DNA of 64,000 nt, taken from Lentibacillus sp. Marseille-P4043 (lineage in GTDB: Bacteria; Bacillota; Bacilli; Bacillales; Amphibacillaceae). Positions 27,798 to 58,882 of the stretch are shown here, piece by piece (within the stretch, counting starts at the first letter, position 1; each line of letters starts with the position of its first letter). The translations under genes were made by a program, and so were the position numbers. The DNA is taken from positions 1,375,168-1,439,167 of the forward strand of contig NZ_LT984884.1 in NCBI RefSeq assembly GCF_900258515.1, in the 5' to 3' direction. The notes beneath the pieces are model-generated. The model was not told the origin of the DNA. It ran no database searches and worked only from the letters and a program-made list of their open reading frames with translations.

Positions 27798-28096
27798 TTT
27801 AAGTATCATTCCTTTCGCTGTTCTCAAGGCACAAAATTTAATGAAAGAACTCCCTCTCCCACCTAAAGTGGTATAATTAACTTGGATGAGCAGGCACACT
27901 ACAGAGCACGGGGAGGGGAGTGGTGCAGTATGATTTGCACTGCCCGCATTTTAAGATGTGCCGTTTGCTATTTTCAAGTACAAATAAGTGTGCCAATGAG
28001 CACGAAAACTAATCCTTGCGTAAACAATTCCTGTTTATTATGTGGCAAACAGTCAATGCCTGCTTTATCCACTATAAACTTTGGAGGGATGTGTTT

Positions 28097-29001
28097 ATGC
28101 TTAAGATTGTTCATCCTATTTGCTGTGGAATTAATGTCCACAAAAAGTTTGTTGTGGCAACAGTTGGTACAACCAATCGGGGGTTACAGAGTACCAAACC
28201 AAGCAATTCTCGACTTTTACAGAAGATCTAATCAATCTTCGGGATTGGTTGATATTCCAATCTTGCATCCATGTCTGTATGGAATCTACAGGCAAGTACT
28301 GGCATCTTGTGTTTAATGTTCTAGAACATGATTGTGATGTCATTATTGCTAACCCAAAATACGTAAAAGGTATTCGTGGGAAGAAAACAGATAAGAAAGC
28401 TAATAAAATGCGTGTATGCCTTGACCATGTAGATAGTATTGAAAAACACATTGCCGATATTGAATCGGTTGTTTTAAATTTAGCTCAACCCTACTTACCA
28501 CAGGTTGAATTAATATTATCTTTGCCAGGCATAAAGGATATTTTTACAGCCATCGCTATTATTGGCGAAATTGGCGTTGATATGTCTGCATTTCTTTTCC
28601 AGAAACATATTTGTTCTTGGGCTGGACTTACACCACAAAACAACGAGAGTGCCGGTAAGAAAAAATCGGTTCGAGTATCACGAGCAGGCGTCTATATCAA
28701 ACTTTTATTGGTTCAATGTGCTAATGCGGTAATCAGAAGTAAAGATTGTCTTTATTTCCGGTATCACCAGATCAAAAAAAGCCGTGGCCATAAAAAAGCG
28801 ATTATTGCCATTGCCCATAAACTACTCATTTGTATTTACCATATGCTTGATAAAAATGAGCCGTTTGATGCCGAACTATACAATATAGATTCTAATCCAA
28901 AACCCAAAAACACTTATGCACCGCAAATTACAGAAGACATGGCAATTCGTTATCTAGAAACGCTTGGTTATCAAATCCCCGATAAGCACGTTAAGATTTA
29001 G
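28097..29001 (+). pseudogene. IS110-family transposase, frameshifted, internally deleted, catalytic Asp lost
   Basis: Starts MLKIVHPICCGINVHKKFVVA (GGAGGG upstream). The first DEDD Asp of GIDVHKK is Asn here. A shift near GGGG at 28179 moves the frame to TEYQTKQFSTFTEDLINLRDWL and CMESTGKYWHLVFNVLE. About 100 residues are missing after ANPKYVKGIRGKKTDKK. The C-terminal Ser domain is kept (LSLPGIKDIFTAIAIIGEIG, WAGLTPQNNESAGKKKS). Three independent lesions make it inactive. IS110 elements encode a bridge RNA at the left end, which would map to about 27895-28096 if still present. Confidence 0.8.
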
Positions 29002-30186: not shown

Positions 30187-30246
30187 GTTAGTGGAGAGAA
30201 AATAAAACGATAACGTGAATAAAATACATTATAAGAGGTGAAGAAC

Positions 30247-30603
30247 ATGAGCGTTAGTTCAGTAGTTGCAGTTTATGTCAGTAACTGGTTAAAACAACAT
30301 AAAAAATCATATCAATGGTTAGCGGATGAGTTAGGAGTAAGCAAGTCTTTAGTTCAGCACATGATTAATGGGGATAGAACATTTACTTCCGAACGTATTT
30401 TCCAAGTATCGGAAGTGCTTGATGTTTCTGTAGATGAATTAATAGACAAGAAAAGTCCATCAAAGGAGTATACAGTCCAATTGAGAGGAAAGATTACTAC
30501 CAGAGAAGGAGAAAGCGCATTGCAAAATGTTATCTTCTCATGTTTTAAAGATGATGAAATTTATTACGCAAATGAAATCTTCAACAAAGGAATCAAAGGT
30601 TGA
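30247..30603 (+). CDS. XRE-family regulator (module 1)
   Basis: 118 residues from the ATG at 30247, placed by AGGTG 6 bases upstream. The HTH_3 domain (about 10-65) reads WLKQHKKSYQWLADELGVSKSLVQHMINGDRTFTSERIFQVSEVLDVSVDELI. A C-terminal part of about 45 residues is of unknown fold. It is the first gene of a tight three-gene unit (XRE, ImmA/IrrE peptidase, PIN-domain protein). In such units the XRE protein usually represses the operon and is the peptidase target. Confidence 0.8.
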   Translation: MSVSSVVAVYVSNWLKQHKKSYQWLADELGVSKSLVQHMINGDRTFTSERIFQVSEVLDVSVDELIDKKSPSKEYTVQLRGKITTREGESALQNVIFSCFKDDEIYYANEIFNKGIKG

Positions 30604-30607
30604 CGTT

Positions 30608-31435
30608 ATGAGTAGTCAAAAGGTAAATCACGCTGATCGTATTGGAGAAGCTTTTGCTCTACAGGTATTAAGTGAACATTTTGGAACCGAAACCTTTATT
30701 GGTTCAAGTATAGAGTTAAAAGTGGAAGAACTGGCCTCCATCGTATACAAAGAAATAAGGGATCCTGACTTTTTTGGTGCAACTATCACACTAAAACGTG
30801 ACAACAGAAAATACGTATTGCTAAACACATCTCAAACTCTGAGACATAGATATTTTACTGCTGCACATGAGTTCTGGCATGTGCTAAATATAAACTCAAT
30901 GATAAAGGATGATATCGATCCTGAAAGAGCGGCTGACAGATTTGCAGCAGCACTAATGCTACCAGAGTCTCTTGTCCGTTCCTTAATCCGTTCTTTACAA
31001 GAAGATGATAAAAAGGAGCAGGAAGAGAAAAAAATAGTCATTCGTATATCAGACATATCTTCAGCTCCATATGTGGCGGTAGTCAAAAGATTAGTAGAGT
31101 TAAAACTAACAGATAATAAAGGACTAGCAGAACTTTCAGATAAAGATTGGACTGAAATACGGCGAGAGTTAAATATTGTAGAAAGTCCGTTGGATCAACC
31201 ACAACGTATTAATCGTTTTACTGACTATGAGGAACGAATTGCTCAAGAAGTTCAGGACGATAATTTAAACTTTATAGAAGCCTCAAAGAGATTAGCAACC
31301 GTATCGCCGGAAAAGTCCGCAGAATATGCCCAACTGCGAGCGGCAGAGGTTGAAAAGGTCATGGATGAAATTGAAAATGATGAGGATGATGATTTCCTCG
31401 ATGCACTATTTGAAACAAGGAGAACTAAAAAATGA
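30608..31435 (+). CDS. ImmA/IrrE-family metallo-endopeptidase (module 1)
   Basis: 275 residues; ATG four bases after the XRE stop. Zinc motif HEFWH (His87-His91) and the third ligand Glu106 in ERAADRFAAALMLPE are intact. The C-terminal 100 residues are acidic and end EIENDEDDDFLDALFE. Members cleave XRE-type repressors. The stop overlaps the start of the PIN-domain gene as ATGA, so translation is coupled. Confidence 0.85.
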   Translation: MSSQKVNHADRIGEAFALQVLSEHFGTETFIGSSIELKVEELASIVYKEIRDPDFFGATITLKRDNRKYVLLNTSQTLRHRYFTAAHEFWHVLNINSMIKDDIDPERAADRFAAALMLPESLVRSLIRSLQEDDKKEQEEKKIVIRISDISSAPYVAVVKRLVELKLTDNKGLAELSDKDWTEIRRELNIVESPLDQPQRINRFTDYEERIAQEVQDDNLNFIEASKRLATVSPEKSAEYAQLRAAEVEKVMDEIENDEDDDFLDALFETRRTKK

Positions 31436-36326: not shown

Positions 36327-36716
36327 ATGACGGGTTTTCATGAACAATCATCATTAGATCGCCATGTGGAACAAACATTAAATAATATTAATACCTTTAT
36401 TGATGGCGAGGGTTTAAAAAGGAAGAGACTTGCAAGAAAGCTAGGAATGTCCGAGTCAAACTTCTCTGATTATTTGAATAGGAAACGATCGAATATCCTT
36501 GACTTTGCGGTTCGATTAGCAGAAGTGTTAGGTCTTGAGGAAACTTATTTTATGAATCCTGAATTTGATTATCAACCAAAGGAATTTGCGGATATGAGAA
36601 CAACTGCTTTTTCAGCGGGTACTTTGTCTAAGGAAGGCGAAGAAGGGTTACATCAACTGTTGAGGATTTGCGAATTGATTGAAACCTATAATATGGAGGA
36701 ACAATCAAATGCCTGA
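36327..36716 (+). CDS. XRE-type regulator (module 2)
   Basis: 129 residues; TAAGGAG about 10 bases before the ATG. The HTH reads LKRKRLARKLGMSESNFSDYLNRKRSNILDFAVRLAEVLGLEETYFM. A TATAAT box (36300-36305) lies just upstream of the ribosome binding site. The gene overlaps the peptidase gene by 8 bases. It is the counterpart of the XRE gene at 30247 with little sequence identity, so the modules are related by architecture, not recent duplication. Confidence 0.8.
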   Translation: MTGFHEQSSLDRHVEQTLNNINTFIDGEGLKRKRLARKLGMSESNFSDYLNRKRSNILDFAVRLAEVLGLEETYFMNPEFDYQPKEFADMRTTAFSAGTLSKEGEEGLHQLLRICELIETYNMEEQSNA

Positions 36717-37491
36717 ACTTACATTTGATGATCTGTCAAAGGTTTTGGGAGAAAACAGGGACATCCGTTCAGAAATTAATATGGCAGTAAATCATTATCT
36801 ACAAAATTATCATCCTAAAGGTTGGAATCGTATTGATGGTGCAAAAAAATTTATTGAACAAAATCATTATTTAATTGAAGCACCCATTCATGATTTGACT
36901 TTCGGGGGGTTTATAAGGACGACGAATACGGATAAAATGATTTGTTATATTAACTCAGCTCAGCCAAGAATGTATCAAAATTTTGTTGTGTTTCATGAGT
37001 TATATCATCTAGTTAATAGCCTTAGGAAAATAGAAAATTTACATCTTGTTGAAGTCGAGATTGACAACCGAAGCGAGGAAAGAAAAGCAGACTATTTTGC
37101 CTCACTGATATTACTTGATGAATATAAATTGTATTCTTTCTTTTCTGGACCTGAAAATAGGCAAGAGACTCTTTTTACAAAAATCCTACTTAGTATGAAT
37201 ACCTTCAAAGCACCTTATAAGGCGATCGTAATTCGGCTATATGAGCTTTCCTTGATTACAATAGAGGATTTAAGGGATCTTTTTGATAAAAAGATAAATT
37301 TTGTAGAGGAGTTTCGTAAACTTGGGAAGGACACCTATATACTTGAGTCAAGTCATGTAATTAATTTTAAGGGGTTAGAAAGTTTAATGGATCATAATTC
37401 TCTTCCAGAAGTAGCTCAAATATCTAATAAAGGGATTCTGGAGGAAATACAGCGCTTCTTTTCTGACATTGGAAAGGAGAAACGCCTATAA
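36709..37491 (+). CDS. ImmA/IrrE-family metallo-endopeptidase (module 2)
   Basis: 260 residues from the ATG at 36709, fixed by ATGGAGG upstream. Zinc motif HELYH (His96-His100) and Glu124 in EERKADYFASLILL are intact. The C-terminal half (about 150-260) is helical with no named domain. Its last base pairs overlap the next start (TAATG), so it is translationally coupled to the PIN-like gene. Confidence 0.85.
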   Translation: MPELTFDDLSKVLGENRDIRSEINMAVNHYLQNYHPKGWNRIDGAKKFIEQNHYLIEAPIHDLTFGGFIRTTNTDKMICYINSAQPRMYQNFVVFHELYHLVNSLRKIENLHLVEVEIDNRSEERKADYFASLILLDEYKLYSFFSGPENRQETLFTKILLSMNTFKAPYKAIVIRLYELSLITIEDLRDLFDKKINFVEEFRKLGKDTYILESSHVINFKGLESLMDHNSLPEVAQISNKGILEEIQRFFSDIGKEKRL

Positions 37492-38551: not shown

Positions 38552-38920
38552 TTAATCCTTATTCAAAACTCCCCATCCGTCCAAAATGACTTTAGCATCC
38601 TTATTTAAATAATTACCAATATCATTTCGAATAAACAGTTTAGGAGAATCGTTTGTCGCCATTTTAAGGCCTTTAATATTAAACGTACTGGCATAGGTAT
38701 TAATCGTTTTAACTTTGGCGATTTCTTGTCTGGTTAGTGGTTGATATCCAGCCTGTAACATATCTGAGATAAAATTAAATATCTCTCTAGCATTTTTATT
38801 TAGCTTATGCTTATGTTCTTCTAATTCACTTAAATTGCTTTCAATATATTTTCTAGCAGAGGAGAACTCAAATTCTTCCGTGCAAGTATTTACTTTATTG
38901 ATAACTTCGTGTAGTTGCAT
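38552..38920 (-). CDS. Hypothetical protein (122 residues)
   Basis: MQLHEVINKVNTCTEEFEFSS then ARKYIESNLSELEEHKHKLNK; helical N-terminal half, C-terminal half KATNDSPKLFIRND-like beta segment. No strong ribosome binding site. It follows the CheY relic by 19 bases on the same strand, so it may be the last gene of the riboswitch-controlled transcript. Family not recognised. Confidence 0.6.
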   Translation of the reverse strand: MQLHEVINKVNTCTEEFEFSSARKYIESNLSELEEHKHKLNKNAREIFNFISDMLQAGYQPLTRQEIAKVKTINTYASTFNIKGLKMATNDSPKLFIRNDIGNYLNKDAKVILDGWGVLNKD

Positions 38921-38939: not shown

Positions 38940-39150
38940 CTATCTGTTTTTGGTGATTTCGTACCCCTTAGCAGAATACATAACTACTTTTGCCAAGGGG
39001 TCAAAATCATAATTTCCTTTAACGCGACTATGATTCGGCATGGTAATGTTGAGAAAAGCTATATTCGGTTGTTTTTGCTTATATACTATAATAGCTTCTT
39101 GGCCATCAGCTACTTCTATAACACCTTGAAAATCAGTGTCATAAATCTTG
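38940..39150 (-). pseudogene. CheY-type response regulator relic
   Basis: The reverse strand reads FQGVIEVADGQEAIIVYKQK then QPNIAFLNITMPNHSRVKGN, DPLAKVVMYSAKGYEITK. This is a receiver core (VxEAxDGxEAIxxY, PDIVxxDITMP, AKVVMCSA). The start and the C-terminal third are missing, and the phospho-acceptor Asp is Asn. Closest in style to chemotaxis CheY of Bacilli. Confidence 0.6.
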
Positions 39151-39161
39151 AATGATACTAC

Positions 39162-39359
39162 TCAAGATGTTCCTTGTCCCTCTGATTTCACCATTCGCTG
39201 GTATTTTATAATTAATTCATCTAATTCTTGGCTGCACTTTAAAGTTTTTTTACTGTCAATACCGAACTTTTTGGCTGCTTTTACCATCATTTTTCTTTTA
39301 CGATTAATTAACTTCAGTAGGTACCCTGTTGTTTCTTTTCTATTTATAGTAATCATCAC
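39162..39359 (-). CDS. Spo0E-like aspartyl-phosphate phosphatase
   Basis: 65 residues. LLKLINRKRKMMVKAAKKFG then IDSKKTLKCSQELDELIIKYQ carries the SQELD signature of the Spo0E family, which removes phosphate from Spo0A and so holds back sporulation. AAGGAG lies 8 bases before the ATG. A c-di-GMP-I riboswitch and an intrinsic terminator lie directly upstream on the same strand, so expression should depend on cyclic di-GMP. It fits the usual family length (50-90 residues). Confidence 0.85.
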   Translation of the reverse strand: MMITINRKETTGYLLKLINRKRKMMVKAAKKFGIDSKKTLKCSQELDELIIKYQRMVKSEGQGTS

Positions 39360-39390
39360 GCAATCTCCTTCAATCTCTGATGTGACACTT

Positions 39391-39421
39391 AAAAAGGCGA
39401 ACCGTAGAAAATAGGCTCACC
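39391..39421 (-). terminator. Intrinsic terminator between riboswitch and Spo0E-like gene
   Basis: On the reverse strand GGTGAGCC pairs fully with GGTTCGCC (two G-U pairs) and is followed by T5. It is placed as the expression platform of the aptamer. Confidence 0.75.
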
Positions 39422-39434
39422 TATTAAGAATAGA

Positions 39435-39520
39435 TTACTTCGGTAACTAGGCTACCATAACTAAAAAGCTTTAGGTCCTTGGCTTTGCGCCCTTATCTTT
39501 CAATAAGTTTGCCATTATCG
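39435..39520 (-). promoter_or_regulatory. Cyclic di-GMP-I (GEMM) riboswitch
   Basis: On the reverse strand the conserved blocks appear in the right order and spacing: GGCAAACTTATTGAAAGATAA, GGGCGCAAAGCC, GGACCTAAAG, a short loop, ATGGTAGCC, TAGTTACCG. These include the GCAAAGCC and GGTAGCC...GTTACCG elements that define the c-di-GMP-I class. It precedes a terminator and the Spo0E-like gene. Whether c-di-GMP turns the gene on or off cannot be settled by eye. Confidence 0.85.
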
Positions 39521-39608
39521 GATAAACTATATAGATAGTCCAATTGAACTATGTTTTACCTATATTATCTATCGGCGGAAATAACAACTTTATAAAGGGG
39601 TTTTTCAA

Positions 39609-39697
39609 GGGACATGGGGACAGGTTAGGTGTCCCGGGCTGTATCCCGCGTCATACGTGGATTTTCCCCTGGGACAAGAAACCTGTCCCCATGTCCC
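39609..39697. repeat. Family B REPIN-like pair
   Basis: GGGACATGGGGACAGGTT + AGGTGTCCC and, inverted, GGGACAAGAAACC + TGTCCCCATGTCCC. A third half-site follows (CCCATGTCCCGC, 39702). Confidence 0.75.
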
Positions 39698-39720
39698 ACT
39701 GCCCATGTCCCGCTGCAAAT

Positions 39721-39797
39721 ATGTCACTAAAATGTCGAAAATTGGCTGTTTTGTGACTTTCATTGGTTTTAGTGACATTAACCTGTATGTTTCGACA
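39721..39797. repeat. Inverted repeats before the first sigma-like gene
   Basis: ATGTCACTAAAA (39721-39732) and TTTTAGTGACAT (39767-39778) are exact complements. TGTCGAAA (39733-39740) and TTTCGACA (39790-39797) form a second pair, with another TTTCGACA at 39852. Possible operators or iteron-like sites. Confidence 0.5.
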
Positions 39798-39968
39798 ATA
39801 ACTGCCATTATTCATTTAAATGTGAGTCTGTTCGTTATAGACTTCGTGGGGTTTCGACAAATAAAACACCCCTTTCTAAAATCCTGTCGCCTTGACAGCG
39901 TTTGCGATAATAGAAGTAGAATAGCTATTACTTTTGCAAAAAGCCGGCTTTTTAGAAAGAGGCTGCTG

Positions 39969-40559
39969 ATGAATCCAGCGATCAAACTAACTTTTGAAGA
40001 AATTGTTAACCAACATGAGGGGAGAATTTACTACTATATCCACAAACTAAACATCAACGATCCTCACCAAGAATTTTATCAAGAAGGCCTTTGTGCATTG
40101 TGGAGCGCCTGTGAGACGTATCTGCCGGAAAAATGTCTGCTTGATACATACCTCAACTACACTATCCGCAATCGTTTAGTCGATTTGCTACGGAAAAAGC
40201 AACGAGAGCAGAAACACGATAAATTTGTTTACCAAGAAGAAACGAAAATGATGGAAAGTGGTAATCGCTGTAATCAGATGAATCTGCCTGTTGATAAGGA
40301 CCCGCCGATACCTAATGAAAACTTGGAATTGTGGGCGCAAGTAAAGGCACAGCTAACGGAAAATCAATGGAAGTGGATTGATTTTTATATATTGCGGGAT
40401 TTGTCGATCAAGGAAATTGCGGAACAGGAAGGTGTCACCGTTGATGCTGTTAAAGGCTGGGCGCGGCAAACCAGGCGTAAATTGAAAAACAATCGGATTA
40501 GAAAGCTGCTGTTGCATTGTCTCCATTGCGATGATATGGATCGTATAATCGCAGTTTGA
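39969..40559 (+). CDS. Sigma-70-like factor, paralog 1
   Basis: 196 residues from the ATG at 39969 (AGAAAGAGG upstream); the upstream open frame runs through a REPIN and is not coding. The region-2-like part reads FYQEGLCALWSACETYLPEK then YLNYTIRNRLVDLLRKKQRE, and region 4 reads LTENQWKWIDFYILRDLSIK then EIAEQEGVTVDAVKGWARQT. Short factors of this type occur in phages and mobile islands of Bacilli. It is about half identical to the next gene, so a tandem duplication. The C-terminus has a CLHCDD extension. Confidence 0.75.
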   Translation: MNPAIKLTFEEIVNQHEGRIYYYIHKLNINDPHQEFYQEGLCALWSACETYLPEKCLLDTYLNYTIRNRLVDLLRKKQREQKHDKFVYQEETKMMESGNRCNQMNLPVDKDPPIPNENLELWAQVKAQLTENQWKWIDFYILRDLSIKEIAEQEGVTVDAVKGWARQTRRKLKNNRIRKLLLHCLHCDDMDRIIAV

Positions 40560-40847: not shown

Positions 40848-41396
40848 TTGAATAAGGATAACAAGGTATCATTTGAAGAAATTTTCAAGCAGAATGAGCG
40901 ACGGATTCATTACCAGATTCACAAGCTACGTATTCAGGATCCACATCGGGAATTTTATGTAGAGGGGCTATATGCCATGTGGTTGGCTTACAAGAAATAC
41001 AGGCCTGATCAGGGTTTGATGTCGACCTACTTCAACTACACGATTCGGAACCGTTTAATTGATATGCTCCGCAAGAAAACGAGAGAACAGGACCACAATA
41101 AATATTTCACCCAAGAAGAAGAGCGAAAAGCGGGTAATGGTAACCGTTCGCGCAAGGATCTTATTCCCATTGTGGATACTTCCGGTATAACTGTGACAGA
41201 TGATGCACTGTGGGATGAGATAAAAGCAATGCTTACGGAAAATCAGTGGAAATGGGTGAAATGCTATGTCATTGACGACATGCCACTAAAGGAAATTGCG
41301 GAACAAGAAGGTGTCATAGTAGACGCGGTCAAGAGCTGGAGTCGAGAAGCCAGAAAAAAACTAAGGAACGCAGGAGTAAAAGAAGCACTGATGTGA
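40848..41396 (+). CDS. Sigma-70-like factor, paralog 2
   Basis: 182 residues from TTG, set by AGAGGAG 4-5 bases upstream. The same order as paralog 1: SFEEIFKQNERRIHYQIHKL, DPHREFYVEGLYAMWLAYKK, FNYTIRNRLIDMLRKKTREQ, then LTENQWKWVKCYVIDDMPLK and EIAEQEGVIVDAVKSWSREA. Nothing resembling an anti-sigma factor is adjacent. The DnaD-type gene follows after a REPIN. Confidence 0.75.
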   Translation: MNKDNKVSFEEIFKQNERRIHYQIHKLRIQDPHREFYVEGLYAMWLAYKKYRPDQGLMSTYFNYTIRNRLIDMLRKKTREQDHNKYFTQEEERKAGNGNRSRKDLIPIVDTSGITVTDDALWDEIKAMLTENQWKWVKCYVIDDMPLKEIAEQEGVIVDAVKSWSREARKKLRNAGVKEALM

Positions 41397-41405
41397 GCAT
41401 GGGGG

Positions 41406-41496
41406 TGGGACGTGGGGACAGGTTAGGTGTCCCAGGCGATTTTGGCGCGGGGCATGGCTTGGCGGGTGGGACAAGAAACCTGTCCCCATGTCCCAC
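41406..41496. repeat. Family B REPIN-like pair
   Basis: TGGGACGTGGGGACAGGTT...GTCCCA and TGGGACAAGAAACC...CCATGTCCCAC in inverted arrangement, same orientation as the copy at 39609. Confidence 0.75.
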
Positions 41497-45186: not shown

Positions 45187-45277
45187 GGGACATGGGGACA
45201 GGTTAGGTGTCCCACTCTACATCCCGCGCCATACGTGGTTTTCCCCCTGGGACAAGAAACCTGTCCCCATGTCCCAC
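45187..45277. repeat. Family B REPIN-like pair
   Basis: GGGACATGGGGACAGGTT...GTCCCAC and TGGGACAAGAAACC...ATGTCCCAC. It touches the stop codon of the leftward zinc-ribbon gene. Confidence 0.75.
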
Positions 45278-49084: not shown

Positions 49085-49174
49085 GGGACATGGGGACAGG
49101 TTAGGTGTCCCACCCTGTAACCCGCGTCATACATGGTTTTTGGGCTGGGACAAGGATCCTGTCCCCATGTCCCA
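49085..49174. repeat. Family B REPIN-like pair
   Basis: GGGACATGGGGACAGGTT...GTCCCAC and TGGGACAAGGATCC...CATGTCCCA, starting four bases after the GH3 stop. Confidence 0.75.
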
Positions 49175-53355: not shown

Positions 53356-53384
53356 TGGGACAAGGGACCTGTCCCCGTGTCCCA
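53356..53384. repeat. Family B half-site
   Basis: TGGGACAAGGGACC + TGTCCCCGTGTCCCA, unpaired. Confidence 0.65.
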
Positions 53385-56148: not shown

Positions 56149-56238
56149 TGGGACGTGGGGACAGGTTTCTTGTCCCACCCACGATCCCCACCAAATATGG
56201 CTTTCGGGCCGGGACACCTAACCTGTCCCCATGTCCCG
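56149..56238. repeat. Family B REPIN-like pair, reverse orientation
   Basis: TGGGACGTGGGGACAGG + TTTCTTGTCCCA on the left and GGGACACCTAACC + TGTCCCCATGTCCC on the right, i.e. the half-sites are swapped relative to 39609. Confidence 0.75.
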
Positions 56239-58790: not shown

Positions 58791-58882
58791 TGGGACATGG
58801 GGACAGGTCCCTTGTCCCACCCGCAGACCAGCGCCAGGCAAGGCTTTTGGTGTGGGACACCTAACCTGTCCCCATGTCCCAC
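58791..58882. repeat. Family B REPIN-like pair between two SLH enzyme genes
   Basis: TGGGACATGGGGACAGG + TCCCTTGTCCCA and TGGGACACCTAACC + TGTCCCCATGTCCCA. It starts seven bases after the nuclease stop and ends just before the ribosome binding site of the next gene. Confidence 0.75.

Follow-up and report, generated by a model that had tools for sequence, protein, structure and literature searches.

Does the small Spo0E-type gene at this locus take orders from c-di-GMP? Spo0E-type proteins hold back spore formation in model bacteria, and here riboswitch, terminator, spo0E and a CheY relic all lie within or adjoin positions 39162..39520 of the window, by which we mean the whole 64-kb stretch of DNA that was analysed (Table 1). 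The aptamer is intact, a terminator hairpin is present, the spo0E frame is open and conserved, and the same pairing is found elsewhere. Judging from these sequences, we consider it probable that a transcription-terminating c-di-GMP-I riboswitch, more likely of the OFF type, controls a gene for a Spo0E-type phosphatase, which would hold back Spo0A~P.

Table 1. Features of the riboswitch-spo0E locus; positions are those of the window.
Feature	Position	Strand	Basis
c-di-GMP-I (GEMM-I) aptamer	39439..39523	-	RF01051, full-model match
Candidate antiterminator, AUCUAUU (39435-39429) with AAUAGGU (39425-39419)	39419..39435	-	Helix enumeration and folding, prediction
Intrinsic terminator, hairpin (39421-39396) and T5 tract (39395-39391)	39391..39421	-	Sequence and folding
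Spo0E-family (aspartyl-phosphate phosphatase family) gene, 65 aa, CSQELDELI motif	39162..39359	-	PF09388
Truncated CheY relic, outer limits by eye; homologous stretch 38958-39122	38940..39165	-	tblastn
122-aa ORF without clear family	38552..38920	-	Pfam and tblastn comparison

The aptamer matches positions 1-87 of the 87-position RF01051 model with 79.1 bits (E 6.9e-14), against a gathering score of 35, and is the sole match at or above that score found by Rfam cmscan in the window, one overlapping match of the same clan being omitted by the program. The first-pass annotation had read the GEMM signature blocks on the reverse strand and proposed a covariance-model search as the check; that search, once run, returned the c-di-GMP-I class and bore the reading out. 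In the alignment to RF01051 both GCAAA blocks are intact, and the GGCAAA, CGCAAAG and CC blocks are aligned. At one position the window aptamer reads G where 237 of 248 aptamers, collected as regular-expression matches, have A; we take this G to lie four nucleotides before the ligand-stacking A47. The contact positions G20 and A47 are judged to be present by mapping through the Vc2 sequence, and C92 is presumed present from the conserved CC block only. In Vc2 these three nucleotides are reported to contact the ligand (PMC9049102). Since the aptamer is full-length, scores above the cut-off, has the conserved blocks and is followed by a terminator-type expression platform ahead of spo0E, the RNA appears to be an ordinary member of the c-di-GMP-I class; its interest lies in the target gene spo0E, which is not named among the downstream targets in the available portions of the literature on this class.

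The target is a short protein that carries the SxxxD signature as SQELD and scores 55.8 bits against PF09388 (Pfam cut-off 23), and its start is preceded by the ribosome-binding site AAGGAGA, such that the Spo0E gene with SQELD and a strong ribosome-binding site was correctly annotated at first sight. Between the spo0E genes of the window and of G044, a relative within the family, dN is about 0.24 and dS about 1.16, and the resulting dN/dS of about 0.2 is only rough since dS is near saturation. Compared with solved structures, the protein has weak and remote matches to 2bzb (E 0.0036) and 2c0s (E 0.14), which are annotated only as conserved domain proteins and which we take to be of the Spo0E family; as the designed helical repeat proteins 5cwg and 5cwc score in the same range, these matches are no independent evidence. 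The CheY relic proposed downstream of spo0E was recovered as well: it corresponds to residues 29-86 of the 121-aa G044 homologue (52% identity, E 3e-12, tblastn), both of its ends are gone, and its phospho-acceptor Asp has become Asn (FLDITMP reads FLNITMP), such that no complete receiver domain with the acceptor residue is left. The 122-aa ORF that lies further downstream gave no tblastn match in the compared stretches of G044, G067 and G083.

The host genome has 7 GGDEF domain matches above the cut-off, which could make the ligand, and one Spo0A (Spo0A_C, 153.6 bits). It carries two further Spo0E genes, neither with a c-di-GMP-I match within its 1.5-kb flanks, and two further c-di-GMP-I riboswitches, one preceding a CheX gene (47.2 bits) and, by eye, a CheA-like frame, the other a 122-aa gene without an assigned family. 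A sigma-D promoter was considered from a CCGATA-like box upstream in the leaders and was dropped, since the pattern TAAA-N12-16-CCGATAW (30 and 28 occurrences in the genome) is no commoner than its reversed control (31 and 24); a sigma-70 scan, with 7 sites versus 5.8 expected, was uninformative.

Several other elements were observed in the window. Two adjoining, similar sigma-70-like regulators (Sigma70_r2; 39657-40559 and 40848-41396, +) are divergent from the riboswitch. A palindromic element of about 90 bp, with arms of about 30 nt around GGGACATGGGGACAGG, is repeated at 39609-39697, 41407-41494, 45187-45275, 49085-49173, 56150-56237 and 58792-58880, with single half-sites at 53368, 53900, 61107 and 61169 and, by eye, another occurrence in L001 at about 1690-1780; 16 half-sites with at most 2 mismatches were counted in the window versus 0.04 expected, three copies were confirmed as inverted repeats, and one copy immediately precedes the riboswitch. 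There are also two HTH and ImmA/IrrE-peptidase-like gene pairs (30238-31435 and 36327-37491, +), the peptidase assignment being a Pfam match for 36679-37491 and made by eye for the other pair, and transposase-like ORFs in pieces (27882-29001, +; by eye). Several large secreted-looking proteins within 8158-61085 (+) have N-terminal repeats that by eye resemble S-layer-homology domains, and they include alkaline-phosphatase-, nuclease- and 5'-nucleotidase-like proteins.

We asked whether the pairing of this riboswitch with spo0E recurs, and found it to be rare, but above chance. A non-random set of 40 genomes comprised the genus of the window, two genera with Spo0E relatives, one further genus, and the genomes G001 and G101, which were included because earlier listings placed both features close together in them. 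Among the 91 RF01051 and 138 PF09388 matches listed for this set, a comparison of coordinates by eye found a same-strand Spo0E gene at most 250 nt downstream of four aptamers, those of the window (119 nt), G044 (126 nt), G049 and G054 (60 nt each); the Spo0E gene of G001, 471 nt downstream of its aptamer, was kept separate as doubtful. Random placement over the whole set would yield 0.011 pairs within 250 nt; this comparison is too favourable, as three of the pairs (window, G044 and G001) had already been known when the genomes were chosen. When G000, G044, G001 and G101 are left out, 69 riboswitches remain, with 0.008 pairs expected and 2 found (G049 and G054). The pairings in G049 and G054, which belong to the same genus, look like one inherited event and would form a second origin, their Spo0E proteins being divergent (31.2 and 28.2 bits, with SQLLD) and their neighbourhood being a different one, with an acyltransferase-like gene by eye.

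Larger sets of riboswitches, taken in rank order from the matches listed, gave a similar answer. One of 155 in the family (G044) and one of 89 at the order level (G252) stand directly before spo0E, with 0.017 and, among 90, 0.010 expected. These are 155 of 156 and 89 of 90 (30 loci and 60 regions) because L116 (family) and L245 (order), whose contigs end early, are out of register, and dropping them leaves the pairing counts unchanged; L282 of the order census is cut at 259 nt, and L250 and L016 are also short. G252 belongs to another family and has a 14-pair terminator and a 50-aa Spo0E (49.1 bits). Starting from the gene, an aptamer lies within the 1.5-kb flanks of 2 of 29 family Spo0E loci (L038 and L051 among L037-L065) and of none of the 20 order-level loci scanned (L070-L089 of 30; L068, L069 and L090-L097 fall outside the scan), and this scarcity weighs against the reading we prefer. 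A wider search of genome contigs by Spo0E sequence retrieved two loci, one from Oceanobacillus damuensis and one with a less closely related Bacillus Spo0E; no aptamer exceeded the gathering score at either. Three neighbouring cases were not counted as pairs: in G101 spo0E lies near the riboswitch and upstream of it, in a second G044 copy it lies 1.5 kb downstream, beyond cheY and a yvyF-like gene, and in L232 a weak Spo0E match lies about 1.5 kb downstream. In G252 (L247), a frame that lies about 1.2-1.6 kb past the riboswitch resembles by eye the antisense of cheY, and a cheY-like gene may thus lie on the opposite strand near that Spo0E. The balance tips slightly in favour of the view that c-di-GMP-I was placed before Spo0E apparently three times in the order (window/G044 lineage, G049/G054, G252, perhaps also G001) and so connects c-di-GMP directly and repeatedly to Spo0A~P; if true, it names a signal for Spo0E, the signals acting on this protein being described as unknown in a 2025 review (PMC12471899).

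A second small regulator appears behind the same aptamer. A SinI-type anti-repressor gene directly follows 21 of the 155 family riboswitches listed (L024, L030, L098, L107, L109, L110, L112-L115, L117-L122, L146, L155, L162, L174 and L225) and 1 of the 89 at the order level (L314), often with a SinR-like gene next; since some of the genomes are close kin, this is not a count of independent events. Of the sequences recovered by the SinI profile, 11 had gone into building it, and the two examples tested against Pfam matched PF08671 with 36.8 and 47.7 bits. By eye, the sinI leaders inspected have a G-rich ribosome-binding site a few nucleotides past the aptamer and no terminator before the gene, and the position of that site suggests translational control, unlike the terminator-type leader of the window. 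A (c-di-GMP)-sinI riboswitch was predicted in Bacillus methanolicus MGA3; as in the window, a c-di-GMP riboswitch stands there before a small cell-fate regulator, but its target is SinI, the SinR antagonist, rather than a Spo0A-phosphatase-type gene (PMC4342826). Taken from sequence, these arrangements suggest that RNA carries the c-di-GMP signal into the Spo0A/SinR decision in these Bacillales.

Among 159 family genomes, three homologues stand close to the window Spo0E, at E 4e-19 to 1e-16, and the match that follows is at 8e-12. G044, whose Spo0E is 58% identical, keeps the whole operon, with an 83-bit aptamer, spo0E, an intact cheY and a short YvyF-like gene. G067, which has the same Spo0E and CheY protein sequences as O. 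damuensis L066, retains the three genes; its leader has no Rfam match up to E 5, the alignment gap spans the second GCAAA block, and a hairpin with a T-run persists by eye, such that O. damuensis appears to have kept the genes and lost the aptamer. As the YvyF scores (33.5 bits in G044, 40.6 in G067) are far below the full-family cut-off of 124, we call the gene YvyF-like only. G083 has an open 57-aa Spo0E frame, with a homology match that extends beyond its stop, and an aptamer remnant below the gathering score (16 bits, E 0.89); its 5-kb stretch yielded no match to cheY. The operon thus seems to be decaying in parts, with cheY broken in the window, the aptamer gone in O. damuensis and a remnant left in G083; since the window lost cheY and kept the switch while O. 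damuensis did the reverse, spo0E is the constant part. The earlier guess of an ancestral transcript joining motility and sporulation gains support from spo0E, intact cheY and the YvyF-like gene in G044 and O. damuensis. The arrangement in relatives, also marked for checking, is whole in G044 but is not broadly conserved, as in both congeners searched no Spo0E gene adjoins a c-di-GMP-I riboswitch.

Other relatives have the riboswitch before cheY with no spo0E in between (the second G044 copy, L125:864-1662; G095, L033; G041, L223; G394, L298), and in G082 (L029) the riboswitch is followed by another gene, then cheY, then a yvyF-like gene; a yvyF-like gene lies behind the riboswitch-linked cheY in G044 (two copies), G095 and G082. 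Because such arrangements exist, a chemotaxis transcript under c-di-GMP control may be the older one, and spo0E may be a later addition to it. The riboswitch- or operon-linked CheYs of G044, O. damuensis, G082 and G095 are closer to one another than to the remaining CheYs of their genomes: in pairwise comparison with the G044 CheY, identity is 58-71% for the linked CheYs of G067, the second G044 copy, G082 and G095 versus 51% or less for the remaining ones.

We judged the sign of the switch from the leader between aptamer and gene. The terminator had been called fully paired, which holds for its arms, GGTGAGCC (39421-39414) and GGTTCGCC (39403-39396), with 8 of 8 pairs, two of them G-U, around a 10-nt loop; the U-tract, however, is short. 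Its folding energy is -13 kcal/mol (z -3.57; 1 of 200 shuffles equally good; z -3.8 for the G044 terminator). A simple terminator scan, which permits loops of 3-8 only, does not report it. In the candidate antiterminator, the AAUAGGU strand is predicted to overlap the start of the terminator 5' arm; alternatively, the aptamer strand ACUUAUUGA would pair with UUAAUAGGU. Helix enumeration gives ACUUAUUGA in the aptamer (9 pairs) and AUCUAUU after it (7 pairs) as the longest blockers of that arm, and two more 7-pair blocking helices are formed with leader sequence that lies at the aptamer start or ahead of it. Aptamer and terminator are compatible in folding and can co-form. At a transcript length of 138 the free fold is favoured over the aptamer fold by 9.3 kcal/mol, such that the energy of the ligand could decide, these energies covering secondary structure only and ignoring tertiary contacts. 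G252 would give the cleaner OFF model: in folding, GAAUAGUUU at the aptamer 3' edge covers the terminator arm while the transcript is about 115-130 nt long, and longer transcripts form a -15.9 kcal/mol terminator with GAAUAGUUU freed or paired elsewhere.

From these features we infer the response to the ligand, the sign of the switch and Spo0A as the target of Spo0E, in the following manner. Bound c-di-GMP would hold the aptamer folded and make the strands that mask the terminator 5' arm unavailable; the terminator would then form, and spo0E would not be transcribed. At low c-di-GMP, the motile state, Spo0E would be made and would take phosphate away from Spo0A~P, which would restrain both matrix production and sporulation. 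The gene set is larger in relatives, where it also includes cheY and a yvyF-like flagellar-region gene; in the window, cheY has decayed and spo0E remains.

We lean towards c-di-GMP switching spo0E transcription off rather than on, as in both the window and G252 the terminator is outside the aptamer and the competing helices are on the aptamer side, which favours OFF. An ON switch, in which c-di-GMP raises Spo0E and lowers Spo0A~P, is rather unlikely on the same grounds, although it would match Clostridioides difficile, where c-di-GMP is reported to inhibit early sporulation by an effector that is not named (PMC8653836), and although in the second G044 copy the aptamer sequence GGCAGCC can itself supply the 5' strand of a terminator-like hairpin, which gives an ON-like layout. 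That copy counts against a firm OFF assignment, as do two further observations: folding found no antiterminator of the window type in the G044 leader, and the leaders of G049 and G054, where no terminator is seen by eye ahead of spo0E, look translational. The unusual G of the window aptamer also counts against the preferred reading, as does a Bacillus thuringiensis c-di-GMP-I riboswitch that is reported to bind its ligand while the downstream genes do not respond to c-di-GMP (PMC11218506).

The relatives raise the question of what the switch is for. The riboswitch could belong to the cheY-yvyF transcript, with spo0E added, the window a decaying remainder and control of spo0E immaterial; the riboswitch-cheY arrangements without spo0E, the broken cheY of the window, the aptamer gone from O. 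damuensis and almost gone from G083, and the two congeners without the pairing would all fit. We hold this to be unlikely, because the window retains a 79-bit aptamer, terminator, ribosome-binding site and spo0E though cheY is gone, because spo0E has a low dN/dS (with dS near saturation), and because the pairing occurs at other sites without cheY behind. It is equally improbable, in our estimate, that the Spo0E-type protein is mainly the phosphatase of the co-encoded CheY-like regulator and not of Spo0A, the operon being a c-di-GMP-controlled chemotaxis adaptor. The 4-nt overlap of spo0E and cheY in G044 and O. damuensis, the distinctness of the linked CheYs and the YvyF-like gene behind cheY speak for such a role, but the window lost CheY and kept Spo0E, the inspected stretches of G049, G054, G001 and G252 have no same-strand CheY behind spo0E, and Spo0E is reported to act on Spo0A in B. 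subtilis and to bind Spo0A in C. difficile (PMC12471899, PMC11115286).

Control of spo0E by a c-di-GMP-I riboswitch therefore stays the reading that we prefer, and in the open-licence literature, as far as its text was available, we found no description of a c-di-GMP riboswitch on spo0E. In C. difficile no known riboswitch appears to affect sporulation-related genes, according to the available part of a study whose conditions did not support efficient sporulation (PMC8653836). Spo0E is reported to promote motility in B. subtilis and to repress it in C. difficile, and the Spo0E/RstA switch resembles the window in using the same protein family to link sporulation and motility; that link is between proteins, whereas the one in the window would be c-di-GMP control of transcription (PMC11115286).

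A riboswitch on spo0E would make a short causal chain from c-di-GMP to the control of sporulation. If it is an OFF switch, motile cells with low c-di-GMP would make Spo0E, in relatives together with CheY, and keep Spo0A~P low, and rising c-di-GMP would stop Spo0E; if it is an ON switch, c-di-GMP would restrain sporulation, as reported for C. difficile (PMC8653836). Either way, the signal that decides between swimming and settling, c-di-GMP, may also set the brake on sporulation.
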